From positions 1-62,128 of the forward strand of contig NZ_JARUKV010000029.1 of assembly GCF_029688865.1 (NCBI RefSeq): 62,128 bases of DNA, written 5' to 3'. The translations under genes and the position numbers were made by a program. The notes under the pieces are model-generated. The model did not search any database. It was given only the letters and a program-made list of their open reading frames with translations, and was not told the origin of the DNA. The stretch comes from Natronococcus sp. A-GB7. Lineage in GTDB: Archaea > Halobacteriota > Halobacteria > Halobacteriales > Natrialbaceae. The first letter of the stretch is position 1. The number at the start of each line of letters is the position of its first letter. Positions 2,430-57,362 of this stretch are shown here, in pieces.

Positions 2430-4235
2430 CTACCCCTCGAGATCGTCCTCGGCGGTCGCGCGGCGACGCAGCCACTCGAGGCCGAGCACGCCGCCGGCGA
2501 TCCCGGCGCCCGTCGTGAACCCGGGCGTTGCCTCGGCGTCGTCGTCCTCCGGTTCGGGGTCGGTATCGTCGGATACGCCGTCCGTCCGCTCGTCGGCATC
2601 GTTCGTATCGGTCGTCCCGTCATCGCCTCCAGTGTCGCTGTCGTCGGTTTCGTTCCCATGAGCGTCATTCTCGTCGACGTCGGTATCGGTGACATCGTCG
2701 TCCGCAGCGTCGTCGGCTTCACCGCTTGCGGAGTCGTCGGTCACGTTGCCGTCGTCTTCGGCCGGCTCGTACTCGCCGGTCCCGTCGCTCTCACCCCCGT
2801 CGGATTCGTCCTCGTCTGCAGGCTCGCCGTCCGTATCGTCGCCCGTCTCGTCGTCGTTGCCCGCTTCGTCACTCTCCTGGTCGTCCCCGTCCGTTTCACT
2901 CGATTCCTGCTCGTCGTCGGCGTGCTGGTCACCGCCGTCGCTCTCGTCGTCCTCACCGTCGTTTTCGCCTCCCTCGTCCTCATCGTTGGCGTCGTCCTCC
3001 TCGTCAGTTCCTTCCGCCTCCTCCTGTCGGATCGCGACGAGTCCGTTCTCGCCAGTCGTGTAGATCGTGTCTCCGGCGATGGCGTACCACTGGGACGGCC
3101 CGCCTTCGTCGACGACCGAGTGGGTGAACTCCCACCGTTCGCTGCCGTCCGCGAGGTCGAGTCCGTACACTGCGCGCTCGTTGTACCCTGGGTAGTACGG
3201 AACGACGATCGTCTCCCCGACGATCGACGGGTTCCGCCAGCCGGCTGTCCCGCCGACCTGTTCCCAGTCTTCGCCCCGCTCGTAGTTGCGGACTCGAAGC
3301 GCGTCGGGGCTAGCGGCGACCCGCGCTTCGGCGGTCACAGCGGGCGTGAACACGTTCGGAACCGCGTCAAGTCGCTCACCGGTCGCCGCATCGACGATCG
3401 GAAAGTCGTCTTCCGGACTTCCGCTGACGTACACTCGTTCGTCGGTCGCCGCGATCCCGGAAAACGAGAGTCCGCGATAGTCGTCTCGCCAGTGAGTCCA
3501 CGCGGTCTGGCCGTCACCGACGTCGAAGGCGGCGAATCCCGGTTCGTCGGCGACCGCGTACACGAGCCCGTTTGCGACGGCCACGGGCGCGGACCCAAAC
3601 GAGGCGGTTTCGGTCTGCGGCTCCGTCTCGGCCTCGCCGTCCTCGAGTTCGACCGTCTCCCGGCTCCAGCGCACCGAGCCGTCAGCCAGGTCGAACGCGA
3701 ACAGCGACTCCTCGGCGACGACGTAGACCGTTCCGTCGGCGACGGTCGGGCTCGTCACCGCCGGTTCGTGGTCGTTCGCTGTGTCGTCGAACGTCTCGCT
3801 CCAGCGCACCTCGCCGGTGTCCGCCTCGAGCGCGCTCAGTTCCGCTCCGCCGACGACGACGCTATCGCCGACGACCGCCGGCGTGCCATCGGCATCGATC
3901 TCCTCGCTTTCCCACAGTACGGATCCGTCGGCATCCTCGAGCGCGTGGACCGCCCCTCCCGTTCGAAGGTAGACCGTCCCGTCGACGATCGCGGCCCGGC
4001 CGCTCTCGTCGTACTCCCACGCGACCGCTTCCGGCTCGGGGAACGAGCCCTCGGACGGAACGTACGCGGTGTTTCCCGCCGTGCCCCGGTAGGAAGACCA
4101 GCCCGCGGGCTCCCCGGTTGACGACCCGTCCCTTCCGTCGGTTTCCGCGACGCCGCTCTCCGTCGTCGTGATGGCGGTCCCGGTCGAAATCGCTGCTCCC
4201 GCCGCCAGTACGGACCGCCGCCTCCAACCCGACAT
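2430..4235 (-). CDS. Tat-exported PQQ-type beta-propeller with PGF-CTERM-like tail (paralogue 1)
   Basis: 601 aa from the ATG at 4235, which puts the Tat motif (WRRRSVLAAGAA) at the very N-terminus; an upstream in-frame Met would add an unnatural extension. After the signal come repeated blades of the form DGTVY / ALDAxDGSxxW typical of PQQ-like propellers (residues about 50-400). A long Asp/Glu/Gly/Ser linker (about 400-565) follows, then a tail PGFTTGAGIAGGVLGLEWL followed by RRR. Such tails are archaeosortase (ArtA) sorting signals, so the protein is probably cleaved and lipid-linked at the cell surface. The same architecture recurs at 10304-12136 and 16149-17690. A TATA-like CCTATATAGATCC block at about 4258-4270 lies at leaderless distance. 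Ligand unknown; an enzymatic quinoprotein role is not shown. Confidence 0.88.
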   Translation of the reverse strand: MSGWRRRSVLAAGAAISTGTAITTTESGVAETDGRDGSSTGEPAGWSSYRGTAGNTAYVPSEGSFPEPEAVAWEYDESGRAAIVDGTVYLRTGGAVHALEDADGSVLWESEEIDADGTPAVVGDSVVVGGAELSALEADTGEVRWSETFDDTANDHEPAVTSPTVADGTVYVVAEESLFAFDLADGSVRWSRETVELEDGEAETEPQTETASFGSAPVAVANGLVYAVADEPGFAAFDVGDGQTAWTHWRDDYRGLSFSGIAATDERVYVSGSPEDDFPIVDAATGERLDAVPNVFTPAVTAEARVAASPDALRVRNYERGEDWEQVGGTAGWRNPSIVGETIVVPYYPGYNERAVYGLDLADGSERWEFTHSVVDEGGPSQWYAIAGDTIYTTGENGLVAIRQEEAEGTDEEDDANDEDEGGENDGEDDESDGGDQHADDEQESSETDGDDQESDEAGNDDETGDDTDGEPADEDESDGGESDGTGEYEPAEDDGNVTDDSASGEADDAADDDVTDTDVDENDAHGNETDDSDTGGDDGTTDTNDADERTDGVSDDTDPEPEDDDAEATPGFTTGAGIAGGVLGLEWLRRRATAEDDLEG

Positions 4236-4645
4236 GTCTGTCTCAGGTGTTATCGGAGACCTATATAGATCCCGTGCTTGCCACACTCGTCTCGTTACCG
4301 GCATCCTCGACGGAATTTGCGAGGACAGCGATCAGGAAGTGAAACCTCGAGGATACGAGCCCCGAGATGCTGCTCGCCGCCTCACGAACTACCTCGAGTA
4401 CGACGCTGACAGCGACGTGTAGTCGATCGAGGAACACGGTACGCCGAAGGCGTGGTTCTACACGTAGTCCAAGCTGACTTTCTCACCGCATACAGTAGTA
4501 GCTATATTTAAATCATATAAGCTACCGTTTAATACCGAGTTAGCTATAAAACCATCACAAAAGATGAGTCACGAGCGCTGCACGAGCGTCCAGCCAGTCG
4601 TTTATCTGCTGTATAATAATCCGCCGTATTCGACGAACACAGTGT
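4236..4645. other. Intergenic: short relic frame and AT-rich palindrome
   Basis: Around 4315-4459 the plus strand encodes RGYEPRDAARRLTNYLEY and, after an in-frame TAG at 4420, SIEEHGTPKAWFYT then another stop. This looks like a decayed C-terminus of an unidentified protein. At 4498-4525 lies an AT-rich inverted repeat (GTAGCTATAT ... ATATAAGCTAC) with TTTAAAT in its centre. A second half-site-like TAGCTATAAAA follows at 4540. A TATA-like TATAATAAT at about 4611 serves the next gene at leaderless distance. Confidence 0.4.
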
Positions 4646-6454
4646 ATGCCAGGAGTCACAGTCGCCCAGGAGGTAGACGATCCCGACGCTGTCGACGATG
4701 CTCTCCAATCGGTCTGTTTCGATGAGCGATATACGCGGCAGTACGCTATCGAGGACGGCGATCGAATCGTCGCACACACCGGGTACGAGGAGTATCCGAC
4801 AGCGGTCTTCGAGACCGACGACTACACGATCGTGCTCGAGGGTCATCTCTACGGGACTGCGGATATCGAAGCGGCGGTAACGGACGCGGCTAGCTTGGTC
4901 GCAGAGGGACGACACGCGGCGCTCGAAGAGTGGGTCGCCGAGCGAGACGGCGACTTTCTGTTAGTAATCGTCGACCGAGCTGACGGAACGATGTGGGCCT
5001 TGAACGACGCGTTCGGTCGCCTCCCAACGTACCGTGCGACCATCGACGGAACGACGGTCGTCACGCGCGAACTCAAGTTCGTTCGCCAACTGGCCCGGGA
5101 CCACGGCGACGATCTGACACCAGACGAAGTTGCGCTCGGACAGATGCTGTTGTTCGGGTATCCGCTCGGTACTCGAACCCTGTTCGACGAGGTCGAGCAA
5201 CTGCCGCCGGGATCGGTTCTCGAGATCGACAGCGGAACGATCGACTCGACCCACGAGTTCCGGTTCGACCGCCATCCGAACGCGAATCAGTCAGTCGACG
5301 AAAACGCTCGAGCTCTCCGAGACGAGTTCGTTCAAGCCTGTGAAAACCGTGCCAGCGTTGTCGACGAGACGGTCGTTTCCCTGAGCGGCGGACTCGATTC
5401 CCGAGCGGTCATCGCGGGCTATACACACACTGATGGAACGCTACTGGCGGCGACGTCGGCACGGAAGGACGGCGGCAACACCGCCGAGGTCGACGTCGCC
5501 AGACAGGTCGCGAACGCACTCGACGTTCCCTGGCAGTCCTACGTCGCCGACAGGACCGACTATCACCGCGAGCGGCTGCTCGAAATGTGCCAGGGAATGA
5601 ACAACCTGGGGATGTCGCTCGGTCTCGACTTCGCCGATCAAGTATCGTCGGATCACCCGTCAGCTGCCTTCGTAACCGGTGATGGCGGGGACAAGGCTCT
5701 CCCCGACCTCACACCGTCGAAGGACGTCGACTCGATGAACGACCTCGTGAGGACGATCGTCGAGTCTCAGGAAGTGTTTTCCCTCGAGGAGGTGACCGAG
5801 ATCGTCAACGTCGACCGAGACACGCTTCTCAGTTCGGTTCAGGAACGGTTCCACTCGTACCCCGAGTCGACCCTCGAGGCGAAATACGTCCACTTCCTCG
5901 TTCGTGAGCGCGGAATCAACGCGCTCAACCACGGCGAAGACCGGACCCGGTACTATCTCTGGTCGACGACTCCGTTCTACTCGCTTCCGTTCTTTACGCA
6001 AGCGATGGCGTGTCCGCCCGAGCAGAAACAGGGCACCGATCTCTACCAGAAGTTCCTTGCCGAGCTTTCTCCGGTCACGCTCGAGATCGACTACGTCGAC
6101 TTCGGGGCGCCGCCGAACTCCCTGACCTACCGCTTCAAGAAGCTCGGATACGATTGGATCTCCGGACATCCCGAACTCAAAGACCGTGTCTTCGGGTTAC
6201 TAGGGAAGGGTACAACGGGTGCCGACAGTCCACCACTCGCCCTCGTCGAGGCGACGAGCGACCCGTCCGCACTCGGTGAGCACTTCTCGAGCGAAGCTGT
6301 ACAGCGCATCACCTGGTCGAGCGGTGCGTACAGCGCCAATCACCAGTACTATCTCCTGACACTCATTGCCGCGACGGCGACCGATCGCAGCGAGCGTTCA
6401 CCGGAATCGGACGGTGAGGAGTCGGATCGCGTCTCTGTTTCGTACCAGTCGTGA
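4646..6454 (+). CDS. Asparagine-synthase-like amidotransferase with inactive glutaminase domain
   Basis: 602 aa. Residues 1-200 match a class II glutamine-amidotransferase fold (LNDAFGRLPTYR; ELKFVRQLA; VEQLPPGSVLEID), but residue 2 is Pro, not the catalytic N-terminal Cys. Glutamine hydrolysis should therefore be impossible as annotated. Residues about 235-450 carry the ATP-pyrophosphatase loop SLSGGLDSRAVIAGY and TGDGGD, as in asparagine synthetase B. The likely chemistry is ATP-dependent amide or adenylate formation using free ammonia or another amine; the true acceptor is unknown. Such proteins are often found in haloarchaeal surface-glycan loci, and the debris of one follows directly. 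A TATA-like block lies 27-35 bases upstream of the ATG. Confidence 0.8.
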   Translation: MPGVTVAQEVDDPDAVDDALQSVCFDERYTRQYAIEDGDRIVAHTGYEEYPTAVFETDDYTIVLEGHLYGTADIEAAVTDAASLVAEGRHAALEEWVAERDGDFLLVIVDRADGTMWALNDAFGRLPTYRATIDGTTVVTRELKFVRQLARDHGDDLTPDEVALGQMLLFGYPLGTRTLFDEVEQLPPGSVLEIDSGTIDSTHEFRFDRHPNANQSVDENARALRDEFVQACENRASVVDETVVSLSGGLDSRAVIAGYTHTDGTLLAATSARKDGGNTAEVDVARQVANALDVPWQSYVADRTDYHRERLLEMCQGMNNLGMSLGLDFADQVSSDHPSAAFVTGDGGDKALPDLTPSKDVDSMNDLVRTIVESQEVFSLEEVTEIVNVDRDTLLSSVQERFHSYPESTLEAKYVHFLVRERGINALNHGEDRTRYYLWSTTPFYSLPFFTQAMACPPEQKQGTDLYQKFLAELSPVTLEIDYVDFGAPPNSLTYRFKKLGYDWISGHPELKDRVFGLLGKGTTGADSPPLALVEATSDPSALGEHFSSEAVQRITWSSGAYSANHQYYLLTLIAATATDRSERSPESDGEESDRVSVSYQS

Positions 6455-6465
6455 ACTACCCTACC

Positions 6466-6662
6466 CTACCGCTCGCCTGACGGCTCGCGCTTGAGGGAAG
6501 GGCTTCCTGTTTCAACGACAGGCGTTGTAGATACGAACGTATCCACAGGGAGCGCAGTCTTCACAGGCGTTAACGAATCGCGAAGCGATTCGTTCGTACA
6601 CCAGAAATCTTCGATTTCTGGGGACGTTGATTCGGAGTGTCCCACTCCTATCTGCTTGACGG
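6466..6662 (-). pseudogene. C-terminal remnant of an IS200/IS605-type TnpB
   Basis: Read on the minus strand, the frame ending at the TAG at 6466 gives TPVKTALPVDTFVSTTPVV then ETGSPSLKREPSGER. I recognise this from memory as a typical haloarchaeal IS1341-type TnpB C-terminus. Nothing upstream of about 6662 continues the protein, so only about 65 codons remain. Two adjacent perfect palindromes (6572-6594 and 6601-6621) lie inside it. The fragment abuts a glycosyltransferase relic on the opposite strand. Confidence 0.55.
6572..6621. repeat. Two adjacent perfect short palindromes
   Basis: 6572-6594: ten-base arms AACGAATCGC and GCGATTCGTT around loop GAA, giving the core GCGAAGC. 6601-6621: nine-base arms CCAGAAATC and GATTTCTGG around loop TTC. 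Both keep the surrounding TnpB frame open. Similar palindromes occur at 32635-32719 and 53796-53860, also in transposon-associated DNA. Confidence 0.8.
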
Positions 6663-7076
6663 GACTCGCGCCCGAACCTGCTTACTCTGGTCACCGAATC
6701 CGAGATCCAGAGTTCGTACGCGGCCCGAAACGCCGGCGTCCGGGCCGCCGATTCCGAGAGCGAGATTCTCGCCTTCCTCGACGCCGATACGACCGTCGAG
6801 GACGACTGGCTCGAGCGGGAGGGACGGCTGACGGTTCTGGCCTGGCTGCGCGGCGAGATCGCCGTCGACGTCGGTCGGGACGGCGAACTGTTTCTGGTGT
6901 GTGGTAAACACCGCTTCACGGTCGCCTCGTTGCTCGGCGTGAGCCATGTCCCGGTGTTGTTCCTGACTCGACACCCCGACTGGATGGCCCACGGGGATCG
7001 CGTCGCCGATGGAGAGGCCACCGCCGAAGCGCATCCCGACCTTCGAGCGCTTCGTGGAAGGGGTCTCCCCCACTGA
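6660..7076 (+). pseudogene. Chimeric relic: GT2 fragment joined to ParB-like C-terminal fragment
   Basis: One open frame without a start codon (TGA at 6657) runs to TGA at 7074. Its first part, SSYAARNAGVRAA ... AFLDADTTVEDDWLE, is the nucleotide-sugar-binding part of a family 2 glycosyltransferase. From about 6824 the sequence changes to EIAVDVGRDGELFLVCGKHR ... VPVLFLTRHPDWM ... HPDLRAL. This matches the C-terminal part of ParB-like proteins of haloarchaeal glycosylation loci (VGRDGE-xxxx-GKHR motif). The two halves come from unrelated proteins, so the frame is a fusion of fragments and is probably not functional. The missing N-terminal part of a ParB-like protein lies at 9800-10125 on the other strand. 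Confidence 0.6.
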
Positions 7077-7221
7077 GCCGGTGGGAGACGCGGTCGGAGT
7101 ATCCTACTGGGTTCCTCGCTGCGGACGAGAGTGGAGTGGGGACAGTAGTAAGCAGTTACCGTCGCCGACGGTTCAACATCATGGTCAAGTAATATCAGTG
7201 CGGACGGTGGAAGGGAGTGCA

Positions 7222-7494
7222 ATGACTGAGGCACGGATCTCCGATGGGTGCACCACGGCGGAACGCACGACGAAACGGGAGCTCACGACGGACGTGGTCT
7301 ACACGGTCGCGGACGTCTCGGATACGGACCCCGTCGACCTCCCACCGCTCTACGACGTGATCGACACCGATGCGCTGAACGACCTCGTCGCCGGGAGCTA
7401 CGATGGAGCGCTTCGGACGATCTCCTTCCAGTACTGCGGCTACACCGTCACGGTTACCGGCGACGGCGATATCAGCGTGGCCTCGACCGCCTGA
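7222..7494 (+). CDS. HalOD1 domain protein
   Basis: 90 aa from the ATG at 7222. The whole protein matches halobacterial output domain 1: an N-terminal helix (TTDVVYTVADVSDTDP), then LPPLYDVIDTDALNDLV and a C-terminal beta pair ISFQYCGYTVTVTGDGDISV. HalOD1 is a small domain found alone or fused to signalling modules in haloarchaea; its biochemical role is not established. This copy stands alone and is convergent with another HalOD1 gene at 7544-7900, separated by only about 50 bases. Both lie inside the decayed polysaccharide locus. Confidence 0.85.
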   Translation: MTEARISDGCTTAERTTKRELTTDVVYTVADVSDTDPVDLPPLYDVIDTDALNDLVAGSYDGALRTISFQYCGYTVTVTGDGDISVASTA

Positions 7495-7543
7495 GGTCGG
7501 CGTCCGACCCACGCGTCGCCTGACGCGAGGAACTCCGACGCGC

Positions 7544-7900
7544 TTACGAAAGGTCGATCTCGGCCGGCTCGCAGATCTGGATCCAGCTGTCGCTCCTGAC
7601 CTTCACGAGGTAGTCCGCGTAGCGAAACTCGACGACTCCCGTTCCCCGTCGGGGTCCGTCCTCCGGATTGGACCCGAAGAACGCGTTCTCGATGGCCGCC
7701 ACGTCGACCGACTCGTACAGCGGCGGTGACGTCACCTCGTTCGGGGAGACGTCCTCGGCTTCTGCGACGGCGAACACGATCGCCGTCGTGAGCTCGCCGT
7801 CTCGAGCGGGATCGTAGTGTCGCTGTGTAACCTGCCGCCAGCGAGTGTTCTGCTCGAGGGTCGACTCGTCCCGTTCGGCCCCGCTACCGTTGTTCGTCAT
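7544..7900 (-). CDS. HalOD1 domain protein
   Basis: 118 aa. A polar 30-residue N-terminus is followed by the HalOD1 core: TTAIVFAVAEAEDVSPNEV, SPPLYESVDVAAIENAFFG and VEFRYADYLVKVRSDSWIQI. It faces the HalOD1 gene at 7222-7494. The two differ widely, so this is not a recent duplication. Its start codon lies about 25 bases from the methyltransferase relic on the other strand. Confidence 0.85.
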   Translation of the reverse strand: MTNNGSGAERDESTLEQNTRWRQVTQRHYDPARDGELTTAIVFAVAEAEDVSPNEVTSPPLYESVDVAAIENAFFGSNPEDGPRRGTGVVEFRYADYLVKVRSDSWIQICEPAEIDLS

Positions 7901-7924
7901 CGTTCATCTCTCCTCGTGCGTGTG

Positions 7925-8191
7925 TCTCTTGATTCGAGTCCAGCGTTCCTCGACGGCCACCACCAGAAGGACGCGACGCTCGAGTACTTCGATGCGCTGT
8001 ACGACGTCGCGAACGAGAACGCCACCGTCGTCTTCGACGACGTGAACGGCTACTCGTCGGGGATGGACGAGGCGTGGAACGAGATCAGCGCCGATCCGCG
8101 GGTCGATCTCTCGGTGCTAACGGACAGGATCGGGTTCGCCATGGTAAAGTCGAGCATTTCGGAGCCAGAGCGGCTTTCGCTGCCGTACTGA
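7925..8191 (+). pseudogene. C-terminal fragment of a class I methyltransferase
   Basis: The frame ending at TGA 8189 encodes SPAFLDGHHQKDATLEYFDA, VVFDDVNGYSSGMDEAWNEI and DLSVLTDRIGFAMV. This is the second half of a Methyltransf_24-type SAM-dependent methyltransferase (FLDGHH and FDD motifs). The SAM-binding N-terminal half is absent; upstream sequence is the start region of the HalOD1 gene on the other strand. It fits with the other truncated glycan-modification genes here. Confidence 0.6.
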
Positions 8192-8271
8192 ACCGAACGG
8201 AGTGGTCGGGGCCACGCGGAACTCCCTCGCGACCGTCGTTCATGATAACCGTTTAGTTACGGTCTTACTGT

Positions 8272-9324
8272 ATGTCCAGTACCAATGAACGACGAGTGTC
8301 CGAACGGCGGAAGCGGGGCCGACGCGAACTCCGGGGACGAACGGTGACCAGCTGTGAGACACCCGTCGTCCTGTTGCTCTACAACCGACCGGATACGACT
8401 GCACAAGTGGTCGAACGGCTCGCGGCGGTCGAACCCGAAACGGTCTACGTCGTCGCCGACGGGCCGGTCGACGCCGAGGACGCCGAGCGCTGTCGGGCCG
8501 CGCGCGCCGTCGTCGAGGAGGGGATCGACTGGCCCTGCGAGCTCCACCGCCGGTACCGCGATCGCAACCACGGCGTCTCGAGCATCGCCAAGGGGCTCGA
8601 CTGGGTGTTCGGACGCGAACGGGAGGCGATCGTCCTCGAGGACGACTGCGTGCCCAACGATTCGTTTTTCGCGTTCTGCGAGGCGATGCTCGAGCGCTAC
8701 CGGGACGACGAGCGGATCATGTCGGTCAACGGGACGAACCGCCTCGAGAGCTGGAAGGACGACCGCCAGGACTACCACTTCGTCACCTACCAGGGCGTGT
8801 GGGGGTGGGCGACCTGGCGGCGCGCCTGGAGAGCGTACGACCAAGAGATGCAGAAGTGGACCGACCCGGAGGTCAGGGACCGCGTTCGGGACGTCATCTG
8901 CGACGACGAGCAGTTCGCCTACCGGTACGAGCGGTTCCAGAAACGGTACGAGGGCAACTCCGTCGCCTGGAGCAAACCCTGGCGCTTCGCGATCACGGTC
9001 AACAACGGGCTCTCGGTGGTTCCCTCGAAAAACCTCGTCTCGAACGTCGGGTTCGACGAGCGCGGCATTCACACGACCGATCCGGACTCCGACCTCGCCG
9101 AGATCCCGCGGTACGAACACTCGCCGTGGTACGAGGGGCCGGGACACGTCATGCCCGACCGCCAGTACGAACGGCGGTACTTCGAGCGCTTCGAGCGGAC
9201 GACCGAGCGGGAGGAAGCGGTCGAACGGGGCGTTCGGCACGCGAAGGGCGTCGGCGCCCGGGTGCTTCCGGAGGGAGTGAAGAACGTGCTGAAACGCCGA
9301 TTCGGGCTGGGCTACTCGACGTAA
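8272..9324 (+). CDS. GT-A glycosyltransferase, HlpA-like
   Basis: 350 aa. After a basic N-terminal extension (about 28 residues), residues 30-300 follow the GT-A pattern: PVVLLLYNRPDTTAQVVERL, a DGP loop, then NHGVSSIAKGLDWVF and the metal-site-like VLEDDCVPN. Next come QGVWGWATWRRAW and SNVGFDERGIHT, which are hallmarks of the family often annotated hemolytic protein HlpA-like glycosyltransferases. Predicted role: sugar transfer in surface glycan assembly on the cytoplasmic side. It is the only apparently intact glycosyltransferase in this decayed locus. Its last bases overlap the end of the convergent relic at 9312. The first in-frame ATG is used; the true start could be slightly downstream at the GTG before TSCETPVV. 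Confidence 0.82.
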   Translation: MSSTNERRVSERRKRGRRELRGRTVTSCETPVVLLLYNRPDTTAQVVERLAAVEPETVYVVADGPVDAEDAERCRAARAVVEEGIDWPCELHRRYRDRNHGVSSIAKGLDWVFGREREAIVLEDDCVPNDSFFAFCEAMLERYRDDERIMSVNGTNRLESWKDDRQDYHFVTYQGVWGWATWRRAWRAYDQEMQKWTDPEVRDRVRDVICDDEQFAYRYERFQKRYEGNSVAWSKPWRFAITVNNGLSVVPSKNLVSNVGFDERGIHTTDPDSDLAEIPRYEHSPWYEGPGHVMPDRQYERRYFERFERTTEREEAVERGVRHAKGVGARVLPEGVKNVLKRRFGLGYST

Positions 9325-10125
9325 CGGACGTTTCGCCGCGCGACGTCGGCGAGTTCGCGGCTGCGCTCGGCGAGTTCCTCGCGACGATCCTCTCCCTCCT
9401 CGGCGTACGAGCCCGCGAGTTCGACGATCGACTCGACGTGTTCGTGGAGTTCGAGGGCATCGAACGTCGGCGCGTCGAGACCGACCTGTTCGATCACCCC
9501 CATCGTTTTGTGAGTGTTCGCCGTCAACGTGACGATCGGCGTCCCGCCGACGAGCGCGTAGATGCTCGGATGCCACCGCCCGCTGACGTAGAGGTCGGTC
9601 TGCGAGAGGACGTCGATCGCCTGTCGAACCGGGGTGTGGGGCCCGATCAGCGGGTAGCCGTGGCGCTCGGCGATCGGGCGGAACAGCTCGGCGTCGCTCG
9701 AGCAGGACGCGGTCAGGACGACGGGTGCGATCTCATCCTCGAGACGCGCACAGAGCTCCTCGAAGGCCGGCTCGGGATCGTACGCGGGGGAGCTTTGTGT
9801 CCGGATCGGGACGGTCCCAGTCGCCGTCGCGAACGGCACCGAACAGGCGCTCCTTGCCATCCCAGGGCGGGTACTCGCGTATCGTCGTGTGCGTGATTCG
9901 TGACGGGTCGACGGACGCGATCCCGAACGGATCGAGCGGTGCGGCGTACTCGTCCGTGTCGAACGTCATCGCCCGCCTGTAGTACCGGCGTCCGAGTCGC
10001 CAGCGGACCGATTCGGGACAGGCCTCCCGTCCGAACACCGCGTAGCCGAGCCCGCGGACCGACAGCCACCGCAGTCCGTCACGTCGGAACGTCCGATACC
10101 CCCGCCGGAGCGGCGACTCACTCAT
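9312..10125 (-). pseudogene. Chimeric relic: ParB-like N-terminus joined to polysaccharide pyruvyl transferase C-terminus
   Basis: From the ATG at 10125 the minus strand encodes SPLRRGYRTFRRDGL ... PFGIASVDPSRI ... GAVRDGDWDR, the N-terminal part of the ParB-like proteins seen in haloarchaeal glycosylation clusters. Near 9795 homology switches, in a different frame, to DLYVSGRWHPSIYALVGGTP and TANTHKTMGVIEQVGL. This is the C-terminal part of the polysaccharide pyruvyl transferase family and ends at the stop at 9312. Because the frames differ at the join, no single protein can be made. The complementary C-terminal half of a ParB-like protein lies at about 6824-7076 on the plus strand. Confidence 0.6.
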
Positions 10126-10303
10126 CACGCGCCGTTCGTCCGCACACCGACAAGAGTCTTGAGGAGCGACCAGTTTCCGAACTACCACGTTCGACCCGTC
10201 TCGCCCCGTTTGCCGTCGTGTCCGGAACGCGTTGAACTCGAGAGGGAGCCCCGTCGACGGTTCCTCGACGGTTCGGTCCCGGAAACCGCTCGAGCCAGGA
10301 CGG

Positions 10304-12136
10304 TCAGTCCTCGGACTCTCCTTCGGCGTTCGCACGGCGGCGGAGCCACTCGAGGCCGAGCGCGCCGCCGGCGATTCCGGCACCCGCAGTGAATCCCGGC
10401 ATTCCCTCGGGGCCGTCCTCGAGGTCGGCGGCGTCGCCATCCGCGTCGTCGGACTCGGCGTCGGCTGCGTCGTCCGTGTCGTCATCGTCGGACTCGAGGA
10501 CGTCATCGGTGGCGCCCTCGGGCTCGTCGGTCGACTCCGGTTCGGCCTCGCTCTCGGTAGTCGCGTCGTCGGTGCCGTCGTCGACGGTTTCAGTGTCGTC
10601 CTCGGTTTCGTTGTCCCCGGATCGCTCGTCGTCCGCATCTGCCGCCCCGTCACCGGTTCCGTCTGGCTCCTCGCTTGCACCTTCGTCGGTGCTGTCCATC
10701 TCGTCCCCATCTGCGTCGTCACTGTCCGTCTCCCCGCCGTCGGATCGGCGGTCGGTTCCGTCGTCCCGATCCCGGTCGCTCCCGTCGCCCTCGCTCTCGT
10801 CTTCAGTGCCGTCGTCACCGGTTCGATTGGATCCGTCGTCCTCGCTACTGCTGTCGTCCTCGCTGCCGTCGTCGTCAGTTCGGTCGGATCCGTCGCTCTC
10901 GCTACTGCTGTCGTCTCGGCTATCGCTCCCGTCGTCGTCCCGGTCGCCGTCGTCACCGTCGTCCGTCCCGGACCGGTCCCGAAGCGCGACGAGGGCGCCG
11001 TCGCTGGCGACGTAGATCGCGTCCTCGGTGATCGCCCGAATCGGTCCGAGCGGCCCCTCGCTCCCGTCGACCGACCACCGTTCGCTGCCGTCCCGTTCGT
11101 CCAGCGCGACGAGCCGTCGACCGTCGTCGTCGCCGACAACGGCGTAGACCGTCTCACCGGCGACGGCGGCCCGTCCGTGGGTGGTCGTCGCCTCGAGGAT
11201 CCACTCGGTCTCGCCGTCCTCGAGCGAGCGACCGCGGTACGCGTCGTCCGTCCGGGTAACGGCTACCGACTCGCCCATCGCGACCTCGCCCGAAGCTCCG
11301 GACGCCGTCCCGAGGACGGCGCCCGTCTGTGCGTCGTAGTGCCGTCGATCTCCGTCTACACCGCCCGCGGAGATGACGGCGGTCGCGTTCCCCTGGATCG
11401 TCGGGCCGCGAGCGGAGCCATCGGACTCGCGGCGCCAGACCTCCTCGCCGGTGTCGGGATCGTACGCGAGCATCGTCCTCTCGGTCGCGGCGTACACGAC
11501 GCCGTTCGCTGCCGCGGTTCCGGCGACGAACCCACTCTCGTCGCCGTCCTCGTCTATCGAGGCGACGTCCCACCGGACCGAGCCGTCCTCGGGCTCGAGC
11601 GCGTACAGCACCCCGTTGACGACGACGTAGACGCCGCCGTACGCGACCGTCTGCCAGGCGGCCGCCTCGTCCGTCCCGAAGTCCGTTCGCCAGCGGACGC
11701 GACCGTTCGATCGGTCCAGCGCGACGACCTCCGTTCCGGTGAGGAACACCCGCTCGCCGTCGACCGAGGGGGCGGTCGCCGCGACGTCGGGGTTCTCCCA
11801 GACGAGCGCCCCATCCGCCGCGTCGAGCGCGACGACGCCGTCGTCGATCGTCGCGTACACGGTCCCGTCCGCGACGGCGATCTCGTCGTGGTGGTCGATC
11901 GACCAGTTCGCCTCGAGCGTCCCGCCCTCGAACACGGGGCCGTCCGCGACGTACCGGGCGTGTCCGGCGTCGCCGCGGTGTGACGGCCAGCCCCCGACCA
12001 GATCCGGGGTCGCCTCGATATCGGGATCCGGGAGCGCCTCGTCCCGATCACCGCCGACGGCTCCTGCGGAGGCGACCGTCCCCGCCGGGAGCGCCGCAAC
12101 CGCCGTCAGTACCGATCGCCGGCTCCAATCGCTCAT
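10304..12136 (-). CDS. Tat-exported PQQ-type beta-propeller with PGF-CTERM-like tail (paralogue 2)
   Basis: 610 aa. Signal: MSDWSRRSVLTAVAALPAG (Tat). Residues about 45-385 carry seven or so propeller blades with repeated DGTVYAxxDDGVxALDAxDG-type strands, e.g. NGVVYAATERTMLAYDP. Residues 390-580 are a low-complexity Ser/Asp/Gly/Glu linker. The tail MPGFTAGAGIAGGALGLEWL plus RRR is an archaeosortase-type sorting signal with an unusual Glu-Trp near the end of the hydrophobic stretch, shared by all three paralogues in this window. Expected to be a surface-anchored binding or scaffold protein. The promoter motif at 12157-12171 predicts a leaderless transcript. ptsI lies upstream on the same strand, about 215 bases away. 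Confidence 0.88.
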   Translation of the reverse strand: MSDWSRRSVLTAVAALPAGTVASAGAVGGDRDEALPDPDIEATPDLVGGWPSHRGDAGHARYVADGPVFEGGTLEANWSIDHHDEIAVADGTVYATIDDGVVALDAADGALVWENPDVAATAPSVDGERVFLTGTEVVALDRSNGRVRWRTDFGTDEAAAWQTVAYGGVYVVVNGVLYALEPEDGSVRWDVASIDEDGDESGFVAGTAAANGVVYAATERTMLAYDPDTGEEVWRRESDGSARGPTIQGNATAVISAGGVDGDRRHYDAQTGAVLGTASGASGEVAMGESVAVTRTDDAYRGRSLEDGETEWILEATTTHGRAAVAGETVYAVVGDDDGRRLVALDERDGSERWSVDGSEGPLGPIRAITEDAIYVASDGALVALRDRSGTDDGDDGDRDDDGSDSRDDSSSESDGSDRTDDDGSEDDSSSEDDGSNRTGDDGTEDESEGDGSDRDRDDGTDRRSDGGETDSDDADGDEMDSTDEGASEEPDGTGDGAADADDERSGDNETEDDTETVDDGTDDATTESEAEPESTDEPEGATDDVLESDDDDTDDAADAESDDADGDAADLEDGPEGMPGFTAGAGIAGGALGLEWLRRRANAEGESED

Positions 12137-12156
12137 ACGCCCCCATGTTATGTAGC

Positions 12157-12171
12157 CTACAAATACTTTCA
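12157..12171 (-). promoter_or_regulatory. Leaderless-type promoter of propeller paralogue 2
   Basis: The minus strand reads TGAAAGTATTTGTAG; the BRE-like GAAAG and TATA-like TATTTG blocks end about 25 bases before the ATG at 12136. That spacing is what a leaderless haloarchaeal promoter requires. The same 10-base core occurs three more times at 1415, 1984 and 2339. Confidence 0.55.
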
Positions 12172-12352
12172 GGCCATATTTTATTATTTAGCTGAGGATT
12201 CGGCCGACGCGACAAACCGGTACGGGCGAAGGGACGACACGTCGCTTTCCGGGACCGGAGGGCGGTCTTCGAAAACGAGAGGCGGCGATCGAAAATCGAT
12301 CCGCGACCCACCGAGGAGCGGCCAGGGGCGTGCGATACCGATCGGACGGGAC

Positions 12353-14053
12353 TCACCGATCCGCGGCTTCGGATTCGATGCGTTCGATAGCCTGTGCGCA
12401 GGTTGCCGCCTCGAGCGCGCCCGACGCGCGCTCGGCCGCGTCCTCGGCGTCGACAGCCTGGACGGCGGCTTTGACCTCCGGAACGGTGACCGCGCTCATG
12501 CTGAGTTCGTCGAGACCCAGTCCGACGAGGAGGTCGGTCAGCTCGGGATCCCCGGCCATCTCCCCGCACATGCCGATCCAGGCGCCGTGCTCGTGGGCCG
12601 CCTCGACAGTTCGGGCGATGGCTCGCAACACGGCGGGGTGGCGCGGCTCCCGGAGCTCGGCGACGCGCTCGTTCTCGCGCGCTGCAGCCATGACGTACTG
12701 GGTGAGGTCGTTCGTCCCGATGCTGAAGAAGTCGACTTGGTCGGCGAGTTCGGGGGCAGTAAAGACGGCCCCGGGCGTTTCGATCATGACGCCGAGCTCG
12801 GGGATCGCGTAGTCGACACCCTCCTCGTCGAGCGCGTCGGCGATCGCGCTCACGGTCTCGAGCGCGTCGGTCAGCTCCTCCGGCGTCGTGACGAGAGGAA
12901 ACATGACCGCCAGCTGCCCCTCCCCGTCGGCGGCCGCCCGGAGCAGCGCCCGGAGCTGGGTCTCGAAGAGGTCGGCGTCCGGGCCGAGCGAGCGCCGGAT
13001 GCCGCGCTGGCCCAGGAACGGGTTCTCCTCTTCGGGCAGCTCGAGGTAGGGGATCGGCTTGTCGCCGCCGACGTCGAGGGTGCGGACGACGACGCGGCCC
13101 TCGGGGAACGCCTCGAGCGCCTCGAGATACGCCTCGTACTGCTCGTCCTCGTCGGGGGGTGCCTCGCGGTCGAGAAAGAGGAACTCGGTCCGGTAGAGCC
13201 CGACACCGTCGGCCCCCTGGGCCTTCGCCCCCTCGAGTTCGGCGGGTCGGCCGACGTTCGCGGCGACCTCGATCTCGGTACCGTCGGCGGTCGTCACCGG
13301 CCTCTCGCGGATCTCGACGTCGTGGGTGGCGCGTGCGGCCTCGCGGCGCTCGTCCCTCGGCTCGACGACCAGTTCGCCCGCCTCGCCGTCGACGACGACC
13401 GTCGCGCCCTCGGCGACGTCGTGGAGGTCGTCGCCAACGCTGACGACAGCTGGGAGCGCGAGCGACCGGGCGAAGATCGCGGCGTGGGACGTTCGCCCTC
13501 CGGTAACGGTGGCGAACCCGGCGACGCGGTCGGGATCCAGCCGGGCGGTGTCGCTCGGCGTAAGCCGCTCGGCGAGGACGACCGCCCCCTCGGGTAGCTC
13601 GCCGAGATCGATCCGATCGCTGCCGGCGAGGACCCGAACGAGCCGATCGCGGACGTCCCGGAGGTCGTCGGCTCGCTCCGCCGTGCGTCCGCCCATCCCC
13701 TCGAACTGTTCGATCGGATCGGCGAAGGCTCGCTGGACGGCGTGCTCGGCAGGCAGCCCGTCTGCGATCGCGTCTTCGACGCCGTCCTCGATCTGCGGAT
13801 CCGCGAGGAACTGGAGGTGCGCGTCGAAAATCTCGGCTTCCTGTTCGCCGACGCGCTCGGCGGTGCGCTCACGTTCGGCCTCGAGTTCGCTCCGGGCGGT
13901 CTCCCGTGCGTCCGCGAACCGTCGGCGTTCGGCCTCGGGGTCGACGTCCGCCTCGTCGGGGTTGGGACGGTCGGCGTCCGGGCTGTACCAGACGACCGTG
14001 CCGACGCCCGAGCGCGGCGTCGCACCGGTGCCCGTGAGCGTGCGTTCGGTCAT
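12353..14053 (-). CDS. ptsI: PTS enzyme I (phosphoenolpyruvate-protein phosphotransferase)
   Basis: 566 aa from ATG 14053 (a GTG at 14059, overlapping the ptsH stop, is the alternative). Enzyme I autophosphorylates from phosphoenolpyruvate and passes the phosphate to HPr. Seen: an N-terminal HPr-binding helical part (residues 25-140), the swivelling domain with active-site His in GGRTSHAAIFARSLALPAVV, and the PEP-binding barrel with EFLFLDREAPP, GGDKPIPYLELPEEENPFLGQRG, VMFPLVTT and SIGTNDLTQYVMAAAREN. Length is normal for the family. It forms an operon with ptsH directly upstream (stop and start overlap or nearly so). No enzyme II or dihydroxyacetone-kinase subunit is in this window, so its partners are encoded elsewhere. 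Confidence 0.96.
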   Translation of the reverse strand: MTERTLTGTGATPRSGVGTVVWYSPDADRPNPDEADVDPEAERRRFADARETARSELEAERERTAERVGEQEAEIFDAHLQFLADPQIEDGVEDAIADGLPAEHAVQRAFADPIEQFEGMGGRTAERADDLRDVRDRLVRVLAGSDRIDLGELPEGAVVLAERLTPSDTARLDPDRVAGFATVTGGRTSHAAIFARSLALPAVVSVGDDLHDVAEGATVVVDGEAGELVVEPRDERREAARATHDVEIRERPVTTADGTEIEVAANVGRPAELEGAKAQGADGVGLYRTEFLFLDREAPPDEDEQYEAYLEALEAFPEGRVVVRTLDVGGDKPIPYLELPEEENPFLGQRGIRRSLGPDADLFETQLRALLRAAADGEGQLAVMFPLVTTPEELTDALETVSAIADALDEEGVDYAIPELGVMIETPGAVFTAPELADQVDFFSIGTNDLTQYVMAAARENERVAELREPRHPAVLRAIARTVEAAHEHGAWIGMCGEMAGDPELTDLLVGLGLDELSMSAVTVPEVKAAVQAVDAEDAAERASGALEAATCAQAIERIESEAADR

Positions 14054-14055
14054 CG

Positions 14056-14343
14056 TCACTCCTCAGCGTCAGCGGGTTCGTCCTCGGGGGCAGTCAGGAC
14101 GCGCTCGAGGGCGTCCAGCGCCGCCTCCTCGTCGGGGCCGTCCGCGATGAGCCGGACGTCCTCGCCGGATTCGGCACCGAGGCTCGTCACCGCGATCATG
14201 CTACCCGCGGCGATCGGGTCGTCGTCGCCGTACGCGATCTGTACGTCCGAGTCGTGCTCGTTGACCGTCTGGACGAACCTCGCGGCCGGACGGGCGTGCA
14301 GTCCCGCCTCGGGGACGATCGTCACGGTTCGTTCGCTGCTCAT
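14056..14343 (-). CDS. ptsH: HPr-type phosphocarrier protein
   Basis: 95 aa, slightly longer than classic HPr owing to an acidic tail. The phosphorylatable His lies in GLHARPAARFVQ near residue 16. AGSMIAVTSLGAESGEDVRL covers the regulatory region, with Ser at the position phosphorylated in firmicute HPr; HPr kinase is not expected in haloarchaea. It receives phosphate from the adjacent enzyme I. In haloarchaea such pairs serve fructose uptake or dihydroxyacetone kinase; which one applies here cannot be told because no EII or DhaKLM gene is present. Confidence 0.95.
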   Translation of the reverse strand: MSSERTVTIVPEAGLHARPAARFVQTVNEHDSDVQIAYGDDDPIAAGSMIAVTSLGAESGEDVRLIADGPDEEAALDALERVLTAPEDEPADAEE

Positions 14344-14649
14344 GTCGGCACCTCCCTCGGCACGGCCCGACCCCGAACCGTCCGCGGATCCGGCCGTTCC
14401 GGAACGTCGTCGAACGCGTCGAGCCCGTGATCGTGTCTAACGGTGGTTGCCCTCTCGCCCCGTACGAACGGTATCTCGGTTGGTTGTCGCATTCGATGGA
14501 ACGGAGTACGCAGTCGGGCTAAACAGTATCGTCTGTACCCGTTTCGTACCGAACCACCCGCGGTGGACTCCCGATCAGCCGCCACCTGTGTTCGTCGATT
14601 CGTCCGAGCGAAAGAAGTGTTGAACCATCGATAGGTTACTCGATGGAAC

Positions 14650-14772
14650 GTGCTCACAGTCCTCGTGGCAGGCTTCCTGCTCGTGACGGCAGTAGCCGTC
14701 TTCTTCCTGCCGAACTGGGCTATCGGTAGATGGCAATCCGACGGTCGGAACGACCGCACGGAGTCGCGGTGA
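14650..14772 (+). CDS. Small single-pass membrane protein
   Basis: 40 aa, GTG start. The sequence VLTVLVAGFLLVTAVAVFFL is one strongly hydrophobic helix, followed by PNWAIGRWQSDGRND and a basic-acidic tail. Codon choice is GC-rich at third positions like neighbouring genes, which favours a real gene. TAG at 14635 closes the frame upstream, so GTG 14650 is the natural start. Function unknown. Confidence 0.4.
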   Translation: MLTVLVAGFLLVTAVAVFFLPNWAIGRWQSDGRNDRTESR

Positions 14773-15174
14773 CGGGGCGCATCGGGCCCCCGCTACCGAA
14801 CGGGAGGCCGGGGACTCAGTCCTCGAGCCGAAGATCCGATTCGGCGACACCCCTGACGCGGGAGCGCTCGTTCGGCCGGCCACGGTCATCCCGATACCGA
14901 CTGAATCCCGGTCATCAGCGCCCATCGTAACCCTCAGCTGTCATACTCTGCACAGAATGTGCTACTTCACAGCATACGACGTACCGAAAGCGAACGCAAG
15001 ACGGCTCGGGACGTCACCTGTGTAACCCGGGACGAGGGCCCGGGTCAGCATCGGTGCCGATCCTCTCAAATACCCAGCATGAGACTCATACTATAATAAC
15101 ACATTCACTACTACGGCTCCCAATTAGTTTGGAAACGGGACTATGCCGGTTCACGCTCTTGGTAGAAGCAACTC
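14773..15174. other. Intergenic, no gene seen
   Basis: No supportable gene in 402 bases. A GC-rich inverted repeat at about 15027-15052 (ACCCGGGAC ... GGCCCGGGT) could be a terminator or RNA hairpin. AT-rich sequence at 15087-15130 probably holds the promoter of the regulator at 15175. Confidence 0.45.
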
Positions 15175-15849
15175 ATGACCTCGATCGTCAATCTCGAGAT
15201 TTCGGGCGACGGGACCGGGCTGGCGGAACTGTTCGACGCCGTTCCGTCGCTCACCTGCGAAGCGGAGGCCGCTATCGTCTCGAACGGGTACGATCTGTGG
15301 CTCTCCGGATCGTCCCGGTCGGAGCTCGAGGCAGGCCTCGAAGCGGCCTCGCCGATCGAGGAGTACGCACTGGTCAACGGCAGCGAGGAGGAGTGGCTGT
15401 ACAACGTCCGGTTCAGTTCGGAGACCACCGATCTCTTCGAACTGGTCCTCGAGGAGGGCGGCACCATCCTCGACGCGTCGGCCGTCGACGGCTCGTGGGT
15501 CCTCAATATTCGGGTCCAGGATCGAAGCGACGCGAGTTCGATCTACGACGAACTGGAGGACCGCGAGCTCGAACCGACGATCATCCGCCTCTACGAGACC
15601 AACGACGGTAATCGCTCGCAGGCCGGGCTCACGGAGCGACAGTACGAGACCCTGGTCGCGGCCGCGAACCACGGCTACTTCGAGATCCCGCGAGAGGTTT
15701 CGATGCAGGAGCTCTCCGAGGAGCTCGAGGTCTCCCACCAGGCGCTCTCCGAGCGACTCCGCCGCGCGTACCGATCGCTGGTCACCTCGGAACTCGACGT
15801 CACGACGGAGGAAGCAGAGCCCACGCCTTCTTCGACGCTTTCGGACTAA
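15175..15849 (+). CDS. Bacterio-opsin-activator-type HTH regulator
   Basis: 224 aa. Residues 1-150 form an N-terminal sensing or dimer part with repeated alpha-beta elements (YDLWLSG, VLNIRVQDRSDASSIYDELE). Residues 155-215 are the HTH_10 domain: LTERQYETLVAAANHGYFEIP, REVSMQELSEELEVSHQALSERLRRA. This is the classic C-terminal domain of Bat-like regulators. It probably binds DNA and controls a metabolic target, but the regulon is unknown. It stands alone, upstream of a tiny CxxC protein in the same orientation. The ATG at 15175 is the first in frame. Confidence 0.9.
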   Translation: MTSIVNLEISGDGTGLAELFDAVPSLTCEAEAAIVSNGYDLWLSGSSRSELEAGLEAASPIEEYALVNGSEEEWLYNVRFSSETTDLFELVLEEGGTILDASAVDGSWVLNIRVQDRSDASSIYDELEDRELEPTIIRLYETNDGNRSQAGLTERQYETLVAAANHGYFEIPREVSMQELSEELEVSHQALSERLRRAYRSLVTSELDVTTEEAEPTPSSTLSD

Positions 15850-15944
15850 CCGCCGGCGGATCGAGCTCCCACGTTCGCTCCGAGTCGGCAACCCTGCAAA
15901 TGGAGCCCGAGAACTGATTGCGATAGCCCCGCTTACAGCGGACA

Positions 15945-16115
15945 ATGCAAAAGCGGTGTCTGAACTGTAGCTGGGAGATTCGAAGCGCAGAGAGACAGCC
16001 GAAGGAGGAGCGAACGCGCGAAACGATCGATCACTTCACCGAGACGGGACACACGATCGTGACGCTCTCCGAGCCGAACACGTTCCGACCGGCCGAGCTG
16101 ATCCCGTCCGATTAG
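15945..16115 (+). CDS. Small CxxC protein
   Basis: 56 aa: MQKRCLNCSWEIRSAERQP at the N-terminus, then a charged helix and TGHTIVTLSEPNTF. A single C-x2-C pair could be half of a zinc site completed by His residues (two His in DHFTETGH) or by dimerisation. Too short for standard gene calling but with GC-rich third positions and a clear ATG and stop. It lies 96 bases after the Bat-like regulator. Function unknown. Confidence 0.5.
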   Translation: MQKRCLNCSWEIRSAERQPKEERTRETIDHFTETGHTIVTLSEPNTFRPAELIPSD

Positions 16116-16148
16116 CGAACCCCCGCGCCCGAGACGGATACTCCGGGA

Positions 16149-17690
16149 TCAGTCCTCGAGATCGGTCTCGGTGCCCGCACGTCGGCGCAGCCACTCGAGG
16201 CCGAGCGCGCCGCCGGCGATCCCGGCACCGGCGGTAAAGCCGGGCATCCCGTCGGTGTCGTCGCCATCGTCCCCGCTCGTCTCGTTGCTTGCGTCGCCGC
16301 CGTTCCCGTCGTCGGTTCCATCGTCGCCGTTTCCGAGCCCACCGTTCTCGTCGCCGTCCGACTGGTTACTGTCGGACTCGTTGCCGACGCCTTCGTCCTC
16401 TTCGGAGTCGTTACCGTCGTCCTCGCCCGGTTCGTACTCCTCGTCGTCGCTTCCGTCATCGGTTTCGTCGCTCTTCTCCTCGTCGCCGCCCTCCTCCCAG
16501 CCGGTCGGGCGGATCGCGACGAGCTCCTGCCCCCGCTGTGCGTAAACCGTTCCGTCCTCGACGGCGAGGAACCCGGCGTCGGCGCCGTCGGTCCAGCGCT
16601 CGCCGTCGTCGAACTCGTACGCCCAGCTCTCGCTGCCGTCCTCGAGGTCGAGTCCGAGGACCGCGTCGTCGTCAGCTCCGGGATCCGGGCTCGAGTGGGT
16701 GACGACGACGGTGTCACCGACGATCACCGGGAGCCCGTACGTGTACGAACCGCTGTGGGTCCACCCGGTCGTCCGCCCGGAGTCGTCGAGCGAAACGGCC
16801 TGGAGATCGTACCGCCCCTGCGTGACCGCCACGCCGTCGTCGATCGACAGCACGTAGGCGTCGGTGAGCTTCTCCTCGGTCTCTCGGCGCTCGGCGTCGA
16901 ACGTGTAGACGCTCTCGAGGCTGTCGTTCTGGACGAGAAGTGTTCCGTCGGCGGCGGCGAGATCGCCCGCACCGGCCTCGACGGGACCGCTCCATCGCGT
17001 CTCGCCCGTCGCGGGCTCGAGTTCGGCCAGCCCGTCCTGCCCGGCACCCTCGAGGGCCACCCAGACCGAGTCGTCCGTCGCGACGACCTGGCTCTGGCGG
17101 GCCTGGAACGCCATCGGCCCGCCGTCGTAGTCGTCGACGTCGACGGACTCGCGCTCCCAGCGAAGCGAGCCGTCGGTCGCATCGAACGCGTACAACGATC
17201 CCTCCGAAAGGACGTACGCGGTCCCGAACGCGACGAGCGGTGCCGACACCGAGCCGTCGCCGACGGACGTCGACCACTCCTCGCTCCCGGTCGCCGCCTC
17301 GAGCGCGACCAGTCCCTCGCCGCCGACGTAGACGGTGTCGTCCGCGACGGTCACGTTCTGACTCTGCCCGTCGATCTCCGTCTCCCACTCGAGCGAGCCG
17401 TCCGCCGCGTCAAGCGCGCGGATCTCGTCACCAGCGAGGTAGACGGTTCCGTCGACGACGGCGGGTTCGCCACCTCCCTCGTTTCGCCAGGCGACGGTAT
17501 CTGGCGTCTCGAGTGCGTTCGCGTCCGCGCGACGGGCGTTCCCGGGGCCGCCGCCGACCGACGACCAGCCGTCGCTCTCCGCCACCGTCGGCAGGTCGTC
17601 GGTGCGCTTTGGCTTCGCCGTCGCGACACCCGTTCCGACCGCGATGATCGCGCCGGTTGCGAGCACGGATCGCCGATTCCAGTTTTCCAT
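16149..17690 (-). CDS. Tat-exported PQQ-type beta-propeller with PGF-CTERM-like tail (paralogue 3)
   Basis: 513 aa from ATG 17690, chosen because it places NRRSVLATGAIIAVGTGVAT at the N-terminus. Propeller blades occupy residues about 45-395 (e.g. DDTVYVGGEGLVALEAATGS; AFGTAYVLSEGSLYAFDATD). Residues 400-480 are a shorter Gly/Asp/Asn/Glu linker, and the tail is MPGFTAGAGIAGGALGLEWL plus RRR. Among the three paralogues this has the shortest linker. Expected to be exported folded and then processed by an archaeosortase. No obvious operon partner. Confidence 0.88.
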   Translation of the reverse strand: MENWNRRSVLATGAIIAVGTGVATAKPKRTDDLPTVAESDGWSSVGGGPGNARRADANALETPDTVAWRNEGGGEPAVVDGTVYLAGDEIRALDAADGSLEWETEIDGQSQNVTVADDTVYVGGEGLVALEAATGSEEWSTSVGDGSVSAPLVAFGTAYVLSEGSLYAFDATDGSLRWERESVDVDDYDGGPMAFQARQSQVVATDDSVWVALEGAGQDGLAELEPATGETRWSGPVEAGAGDLAAADGTLLVQNDSLESVYTFDAERRETEEKLTDAYVLSIDDGVAVTQGRYDLQAVSLDDSGRTTGWTHSGSYTYGLPVIVGDTVVVTHSSPDPGADDDAVLGLDLEDGSESWAYEFDDGERWTDGADAGFLAVEDGTVYAQRGQELVAIRPTGWEEGGDEEKSDETDDGSDDEEYEPGEDDGNDSEEDEGVGNESDSNQSDGDENGGLGNGDDGTDDGNGGDASNETSGDDGDDTDGMPGFTAGAGIAGGALGLEWLRRRAGTETDLED

Positions 17691-17980
17691 ACTCGCTTCG
17701 ATCCGGAGCAGACGCATTACTATCGGCCAAGTATGTAAAATTCCCTTACTCTACAACAGTCTTAACAATGTCCTCATCGTCGCTCGCGTACGGCCGCGAG
17801 CTCGAGGGCAGGCCCGTAGGCGCCGTCAGCTCCCGGGAGAGGGCGATCACTCCGTCACGTCGATCGATCGACGGACGGACGCGATCTCAACTGAGGGGAG
17901 ACCTGTCGTCAGGGCGAACGGTCGATCCTGGGTCGTGCGCGCTCGAGCGACGTCTCCGGCGTTAACTAACGGGTAAGCTC

Positions 17981-18682
17981 TCACCACGGAATCGGCATCA
18001 GCCCGATCGTCAGCGTGAGTCCCCAGGCGTTGACGAGTAGATGCATCACCCACGGGGCGACGAGGCTGTCGTACCACAACCGAAGCGCCGTCAGTACGAC
18101 GCCGAGCGCCCCAGTGACGGCGATGCTAACCGCGCCAGCCATGAAGACGTGAACGAACGCGAACAGCGCGATCGACAGGAGGCTCGCGGTCACAACGCCG
18201 TACCCGCGTGCGAGGAAGTGGCCCAGAACCAGCCCGCGGAACAGGATCTCTTCGGCAACTGGGGCGATCACGATCGATGTCAGAACCAGCGCCGTGATCC
18301 CGGCGGTGCTCGTCACCGGAGCGCGAGCGTGCGGGTCGAGGCCGACCGTCGTCGCGGCGACGTTCCCGACGATGACGATCGCGATCCCGACGGCGGTAGC
18401 CACTACCGCGACGCCAAGTTCCCGCGGTGCCGGGGAACGGACGACCGCAGCCGCCCGCCAGGTCGACCGGTCCCACCGCCAGTACAGTCCGGTGACGACG
18501 GCGACGTACGCGGCGCCGAGTGGCACCAGCAACACCCAGTCCGGCCAGCCCGGATCCGAACCCTGGTGAGCGGCGATCCCGACGGTCATCACGAGCACGA
18601 CAGTCAGGATCGGGACCAACGGGAGGAGGATCGTGTGGAGAAGCGAGCAGCCTGCCAGCGGTGCGACCGGTTCGAACGGCAA
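17981..18682 (-). CDS. CPBP-family intramembrane metalloprotease
   Basis: 233 aa, about seven transmembrane segments. The CPBP/Abi signature is complete: EEILFRGLVLGHFL (Glu-Glu-x3-Arg) and FAFVHVFMAG (Phe-x3-His), followed by a last helix LVAPWVMHLLVNAWGL with the conserved His/Asn. Such proteins resemble CAAX prenyl endopeptidases; archaeal substrates are mostly unknown. It stands alone, on the strand opposite the next membrane protein. The start at 18682 is provisional. Confidence 0.88.
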   Translation of the reverse strand: MPFEPVAPLAGCSLLHTILLPLVPILTVVLVMTVGIAAHQGSDPGWPDWVLLVPLGAAYVAVVTGLYWRWDRSTWRAAAVVRSPAPRELGVAVVATAVGIAIVIVGNVAATTVGLDPHARAPVTSTAGITALVLTSIVIAPVAEEILFRGLVLGHFLARGYGVVTASLLSIALFAFVHVFMAGAVSIAVTGALGVVLTALRLWYDSLVAPWVMHLLVNAWGLTLTIGLMPIPW

Positions 18683-47733: not shown

Positions 47734-48013
47734 CGGAATCGCCAGATTCGAGATGTTCTCTAATATATTAGGTGCGCACTAGCCTGTTTGTTCACTCGCC
47801 CGGGCTAGTCGAGGGCAATACGCCAGCGTGGCAGCACTGGTTTCTCGCAGACGCTTTTTAATCATGTCCGCAACAGGCTACTACCTGAGCCATGCGCTCT
47901 ACGATGTGACGATGGACTCACTTGAGTCCCGGCCGGATTCAGGATCGTTTCTCCCGCAGAATTTGTGACTTGGCTCAGTATTCGACGATAGTTTAGAGAG
48001 AAGAGACCGGATA
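47734..48013. other. Intergenic at start of AT-richer region
   Basis: 280 bases. A 34-codon frame from ATG 47865 (MSATGYYLSHALYDVTMDSL) follows a TTTTTAATC stretch but has no recognisable family. Base composition shifts toward AT here. Confidence 0.35.
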
Positions 48014-48553: not shown

Positions 48554-48577
48554 GAATTCCTGTGAAACTGTTATCTA

Positions 48578-49560: not shown

Positions 49561-49567
49561 ACATAAG

Positions 49568-49803: not shown

Positions 49804-50031
49804 TTTTATTCAATCAAATGGGGTGGATGCAATACTGTCTTGCTATATGTTTGATTTATATTGGAATTTTCGACACTATGCTAGATGAGTAAACACTAAT
49901 ACGCAATCAAGCCGAACGTTTATTTTATTCCCATCTATCCTTTCTCCCAGACGCAGCGGCACAGAAACAAGACAGTCCGATCCGAGAGAGGTATCGCTGC
50001 GGAACCAACCGATTATCCCACGATTCGAACG

Positions 50032-55699: not shown

Positions 55700-55762
55700 A
55701 CGTACTGCCTGTCTCTCTATCAGAGAAGACGTAATACTTATCGAATTTTTTGAAAAGCTACT

Positions 55763-57337: not shown

Positions 57338-57362
57338 CGCTGTTGAAACGGATTAGTGGAGC

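Follow-up and report, generated by a model that had tools for sequence, protein, structure and literature searches.

The question raised by this locus is why three genes, whose products have strongly diverged bodies, end in nearly the same C-terminal peptide. The window analysed here is contig C22 (62,128 nucleotides) of a haloarchaeal genome that measures 4.88 Mb and is 99% complete. Genes A, B and C were all found where the first-pass annotation had placed them, and each encodes a Tat signal, a PQQ-type propeller, an acidic linker and the tail PGFTxGAGIAGGxLGLEWLRRR, named here the LEW tail (Table 1). The N-terminal export signal is the twin-arginine motif W-x-RRSVLA/T. PQQ_2 repeats (PF13360) were observed in each of the three proteins with E-values from 3e-24 to 7e-28. 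The start of gene A is more likely Met24, position 4235, and the likely start of gene C is Met10, position 17690, which is the end given in the first-pass annotation. The tail was described there as identical in all three proteins. Over its 22 amino acids B and C indeed agree exactly, whereas A departs at two positions. This tail is exceptional, since the propellers of A, B and C are just 28-32% identical.

Table 1. Coordinates of the tailed propeller genes, their parts and the neighbouring protease gene in the window
Feature	Position	Strand	Content or basis
Gene A	2430..4304	-	Tat signal, PQQ-type propeller, ~169-aa acidic linker, LEW tail
Gene A twin-arginine signal MSGWRRRSVLAAGAAIS...	4143..4235	-	sequence
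Gene A propeller, limits approximate	3033..4103	-	
Gene A acidic linker	2526..3032	-	
Gene A tail PGFTTGAGIAGGVLGLEWLRRR	2460..2525	-	
Gene B	10304..12136	-	Tat signal, PQQ-type propeller, ~195-aa acidic linker, LEW tail
Gene B twin-arginine signal MSDWSRRSVLTAVAAL...	12053..12136	-	sequence
Gene B propeller, limits approximate	10985..11992	-	
Gene B acidic linker	10400..10984	-	
Gene B tail PGFTAGAGIAGGALGLEWLRRR	10334..10399	-	
Gene C	16149..17717	-	Tat signal, PQQ-type propeller, ~89-aa acidic linker, LEW tail
Gene C twin-arginine signal MENWNRRSVLATGAIIAV...	17616..17690	-	sequence
Gene C propeller	16512..17570	-	domain match and structure model
Gene C acidic linker	16245..16511	-	sequence and structure model
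Gene C tail PGFTAGAGIAGGALGLEWLRRR	16179..16244	-	
CPBP (Rce1-like) intramembrane protease gene	17981-18682	-	PF02517, E 4e-16; beside gene C

The number of tails had been given as three. A search with a tail profile yielded seven LEW tails in the genome: those of A, B and C and further copies on contigs C3, C5, C24 and C7. In six of the seven proteins the signal was read as Tat; the C3 copy is cut by the contig end. The same genome has five canonical PGF tails, all on Sec proteins, and the canonical PGF tails examined in this genus likewise belong to proteins with Sec-type signals. The gene on C24 is probably the fourth tailed propeller of the cluster, since the first bases of C24 (L035) and of the window lie two bases from each other in genome G002 (L107:3587, 3589), so that the two contigs probably abut. 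The tail profile matches 27 of 61 relatives. All nine genomes of the genus contain 6-11 copies, and few copies occur outside the family. A model made from the propellers of A, B and C matches 80 of the 100 collected tail-bearing frames, and the others are mostly LVIVD propellers (PF08309 in P0004). Across 48 aligned tails no variation occurs at P, G, T, L, E, R, R, and F is replaced about once. A hydrophobic segment does precede the basic cluster, but it is weak (mean KD 0.98 in the PQQ cluster).

Propellers of this type also exist in tailless form. Two PQQ paralogues with Tat signals in the same genome (L225:1560-2777 and L226:1203-2435) stop right after the propeller and have neither linker nor tail, and in G009, from a related genus, a PQQ propeller (L199) ends in an acidic linker without the PGF tail. 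G002 and G004 lack, as one block, gene A together with the adjoining asparagine-synthase-like gene that follows (2454-6859 of the window); a few bases of the 3' end of A remain there.

One possibility, considered already in the first-pass annotation, is that recent duplication or gene conversion spread a tail that is otherwise unconstrained. The codons do not support it. At sites with identical amino acids, the tail codon identity of paralogues is 0.53 within genomes and 0.54 between genomes (p=0.18; 104 within-genome and 646 between-genome pairs), and that of the propellers is 0.56. Thus the tail codons have diverged like the propeller codons and are no closer within a genome. The peptide identity between paralogues is 0.83 in the tail versus 0.32 in the propeller, where the former value is biased upward because the tail was the criterion for collecting the genes; the codon figures are unaffected by this. 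Moreover, the tree gives good support to orthologue groups that span several species. On the other hand, gene C and the C5 copy share 18 of 21 tail codons, versus 8.7 expected from random synonymous choice, and an excess was also observed in the own-genome pairs C24-C5 and C24-A. Since these few pairs exceed the codon expectation, occasional local conversion among some own-genome tails is possible. As the general source of the conserved peptide, however, duplication or conversion is scarcely credible.

The LEW tail shares several features with the PGF-CTERM substrates of archaeosortase ArtA: the PGF motif, a short hydrophobic segment, a C-terminal Arg cluster, an acidic linker ahead of it and one ArtA encoded in the genome. 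It differs from them in that its hydrophobic part is Gly-rich and weak (KD about 1.0) and ends in LEWLRRR. Also, unlike PGF-CTERM generally, it was found in this analysis only on Tat-exported propellers. All scores of the LEW tail with the curated NCBIfam PGF-CTERM model (TIGR04126) are below the cut-off of 24.5 bits: 14.7 for C, 11.5 for B and 15.4 for the isolated tail, and the tail of gene A does not match this model. Three proteins of the genome score above the cut-off and the seven LEW tails below it; hence, if these tails are indeed processed by ArtA, the curated model under-counts likely ArtA substrates.

A single ArtA was identified in the genome (TIGR04125, 324 bits; C1:275301-276146). 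Among the 61 relatives ArtA is present in 59, as a single copy in 57 of these. Each of the 27 tail-positive genomes has ArtA, and the two genomes without ArtA have no tail; the same single ArtA is present in relatives both with and without LEW tails. The first-pass annotation suggested a dedicated substrate class and a search for a co-occurring archaeosortase variant. The only other match to TIGR04178 in the genome scores 14.5 bits versus the cut-off of 23, and PF09721 has no match in the genome. Searches with TIGR04125, TIGR04178 and PF09721 thus leave only one ArtA above the cut-off, and a dedicated archaeosortase is rejected. A distinct class is supported, as the peptide is conserved, is present in all nine genomes of the genus and occurs in two propeller families; the dedicated enzyme is not.

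The second of these families, LVIVD, is an unrelated Tat propeller family that carries the same LEW tail in this haloarchaeal family. LVIVD orthologues from other families have canonical PGF tails. A scan of named genomes assigned one such group to Haloarcula, with tails such as PGFGVGSAVAAVGLAAWRARRR, and this tail passes the PGF-CTERM cut-off with 27.0 bits. According to the first-pass annotation, its reading would fail if unrelated proteins had these tails with the usual PGF-CTERM variation. This was observed in part: LVIVD proteins have LEW here and canonical PGF elsewhere. HVO_0405 of Haloferax volcanii has an LVIVD domain at its N-terminus. It is reported to be cut in dependence on ArtA, a step for which the Pss enzymes are needed too (PMC7157517), and it has been studied as a Tat substrate (PMC7305310). 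ArtA processes both Tat and Sec substrates (PMC7157517). HVO_0405 resembles the LEW-tailed LVIVD proteins in combining an LVIVD domain with Tat export, and it has a tripartite segment that ArtA cleaves (PMC7157517, PMC7305310). Its orthology to the proteins considered here is judged from the domain name and the Tat and ArtA reports; unlike in the LEW proteins, the segment is in the middle of the protein after a gene fusion. The reports on HVO_0405, together with the canonical tails of LVIVD orthologues, make ArtA the best candidate enzyme for the LEW tail. The LEW tail is therefore most plausibly a variant of PGF-CTERM specific to this lineage, which would be processed by ArtA.

The reading that we consider probable is that this variant belongs to the Tat route, and that ArtA cuts and lipidates the protein so that the propeller is shown on its acidic linker. 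The propeller would first fold in the cytoplasm and then leave via Tat. The weak Gly-rich tail would keep the C-terminus in the membrane temporarily, RRR lying on the inner side and PGF on the outer. The single ArtA of the genome would then recognise PGF and cut off the tail, and a lipid would be attached. As a result, the propeller would stand at the surface on an acidic linker, of a length set by the paralogue.

Alternatively, the LEW segment could be a permanent C-terminal membrane anchor of Tat propellers, with PGF a relic. Indeed, Tat-dependent C-tail anchored proteins are known in bacteria (PMC10924467), and the low PGF-CTERM scores of the tail agree with this explanation. However, a plain anchor needs no PGF, and P and G are invariant and F nearly so in the 48 diverse aligned rows; moreover, PGF is retained in two unrelated propeller families, and a weak segment of about 15 residues would make a poor permanent anchor. 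An uncleaved tail is thus unlikely.

It is also conceivable that cleavage is performed by another intramembrane protease, for example the CPBP (Rce1-like) enzyme encoded beside gene C, which would act like myxosortase, or a rhomboid. In G000, G004 and G007 the CPBP gene adjoins the orthologue of gene C, and Gly-rich segments suit rhomboids. Sortase activity of a CPBP protease has been reported (PMC11980579). However, among the loci examined no relative of the CPBP gene was observed near other tail genes, and the LEW tail, which has PGF, contains no Cys, the invariant signature residue of MYXO-CTERM as defined in PMC11980579. The chance that one of these proteases replaces ArtA appears slight.

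If ArtA does process the LEW tail as a Tat-route variant of PGF-CTERM, its low hydrophobicity may be related to the export route. PGF-tailed proteins of this genus and of other families of the order were clustered by homology of the protein body, and each cluster was labelled as Tat or Sec from the N-terminus, by motif and by eye. In the sampled haloarchaea the median tail hydropathy (KD) is 1.29 in 13 Tat families versus 2.34 in 25 Sec families (Mann-Whitney p=2e-6), a split whose strength may shift in complete proteomes because the families were sampled with tail profiles and strongly hydrophobic Tat tails may be under-sampled. The Gly fraction of the tail is at least 0.23 in Tat families and at most 0.19 in Sec families, with no overlap. 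Two of the 13 Tat families have tails of high hydropathy (1.91 and 2.10).

The LEW tail may be less hydrophobic than Sec PGF tails because a Tat protein needs no Sec stop-transfer helix and must avoid the Sec/SRP path; our proposal is that tails of Tat proteins are adjusted so as to escape this path. More generally, we lean towards the existence of two types of archaeosortase-substrate tails in haloarchaea, depending on the route: strongly hydrophobic PGF tails of Sec proteins, and weak, Gly-rich PGF tails of Tat proteins, in which Trp or Tyr frequently adjoins the basic cluster. The LEW tail would be the extreme form of the latter in one family, and a C-terminal counterpart of Tat signal peptides, whose lower hydrophobicity serves to avoid Sec (PMC10924467). 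Actinobacterial Tat-dependent tail-anchored proteins and sortase substrates described in the same source resemble the LEW proteins in having a Tat signal and a hydrophobic C-tail, and some of them are predicted sortase substrates. On the other hand, they are bacterial and use a different sortase, and the passages considered here give no hydropathy contrast with Sec substrates. If the two-type reading is right, export route and C-terminal sorting tail would be linked by a simple rule, with consequences for how Tat C-tail substrates avoid Sec and for how a single ArtA can serve both routes.

The linkers differ between the paralogues and are stable within them. With orthologue groups taken from the tree and the N-termini, the coefficient of variation of linker length is on average 0.09 inside groups versus 0.34 overall (Kruskal p=1.6e-4). 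Linker length is thus typical of each orthologue group, varying little in a group and much overall, which lends some support to the initial suggestion of arms of different length and to arms of set length.

The structure model of gene C contains about 32 strands, a strand-free linker of low confidence and a short helix in the tail. The model is consistent with an eight-bladed propeller of four-stranded blades. Its best fold matches are BamB and relatives (Foldseek E about 1e-17, TM about 0.7 by target length). BamB (YfgL) is also a PQQ-type propeller; unlike A, B and C, it is a bacterial outer-membrane assembly lipoprotein. Identification of the three proteins as BamB is not supported, as they score 49.3, 58.8 and 59.2 bits with the equivalog model TIGR03300, whose cut-off is 285. 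A search of one literature collection found no paper joining the terms "PQQ-binding-like beta-propeller" and "haloarchaea".

Several other features of the window were observed. The frame at 34-1062 (+) has no Pfam match; it encodes a Tat signal with a lipobox-like VAGC and a long acidic stretch followed by an unknown domain, so that the linker design is mirrored at the N-terminus. A BAT/HTH_10 regulator gene (15175-15849, +) is convergent with gene C. A short frame at 9312-9860 (-) matches just the C-terminal end of polysaccharide pyruvyl transferase and may be a remnant. Finally, several blocks in the region 48001-62000 have a G+C content of 0.47-0.58 versus about 0.66 elsewhere, and are possibly a mobile element.
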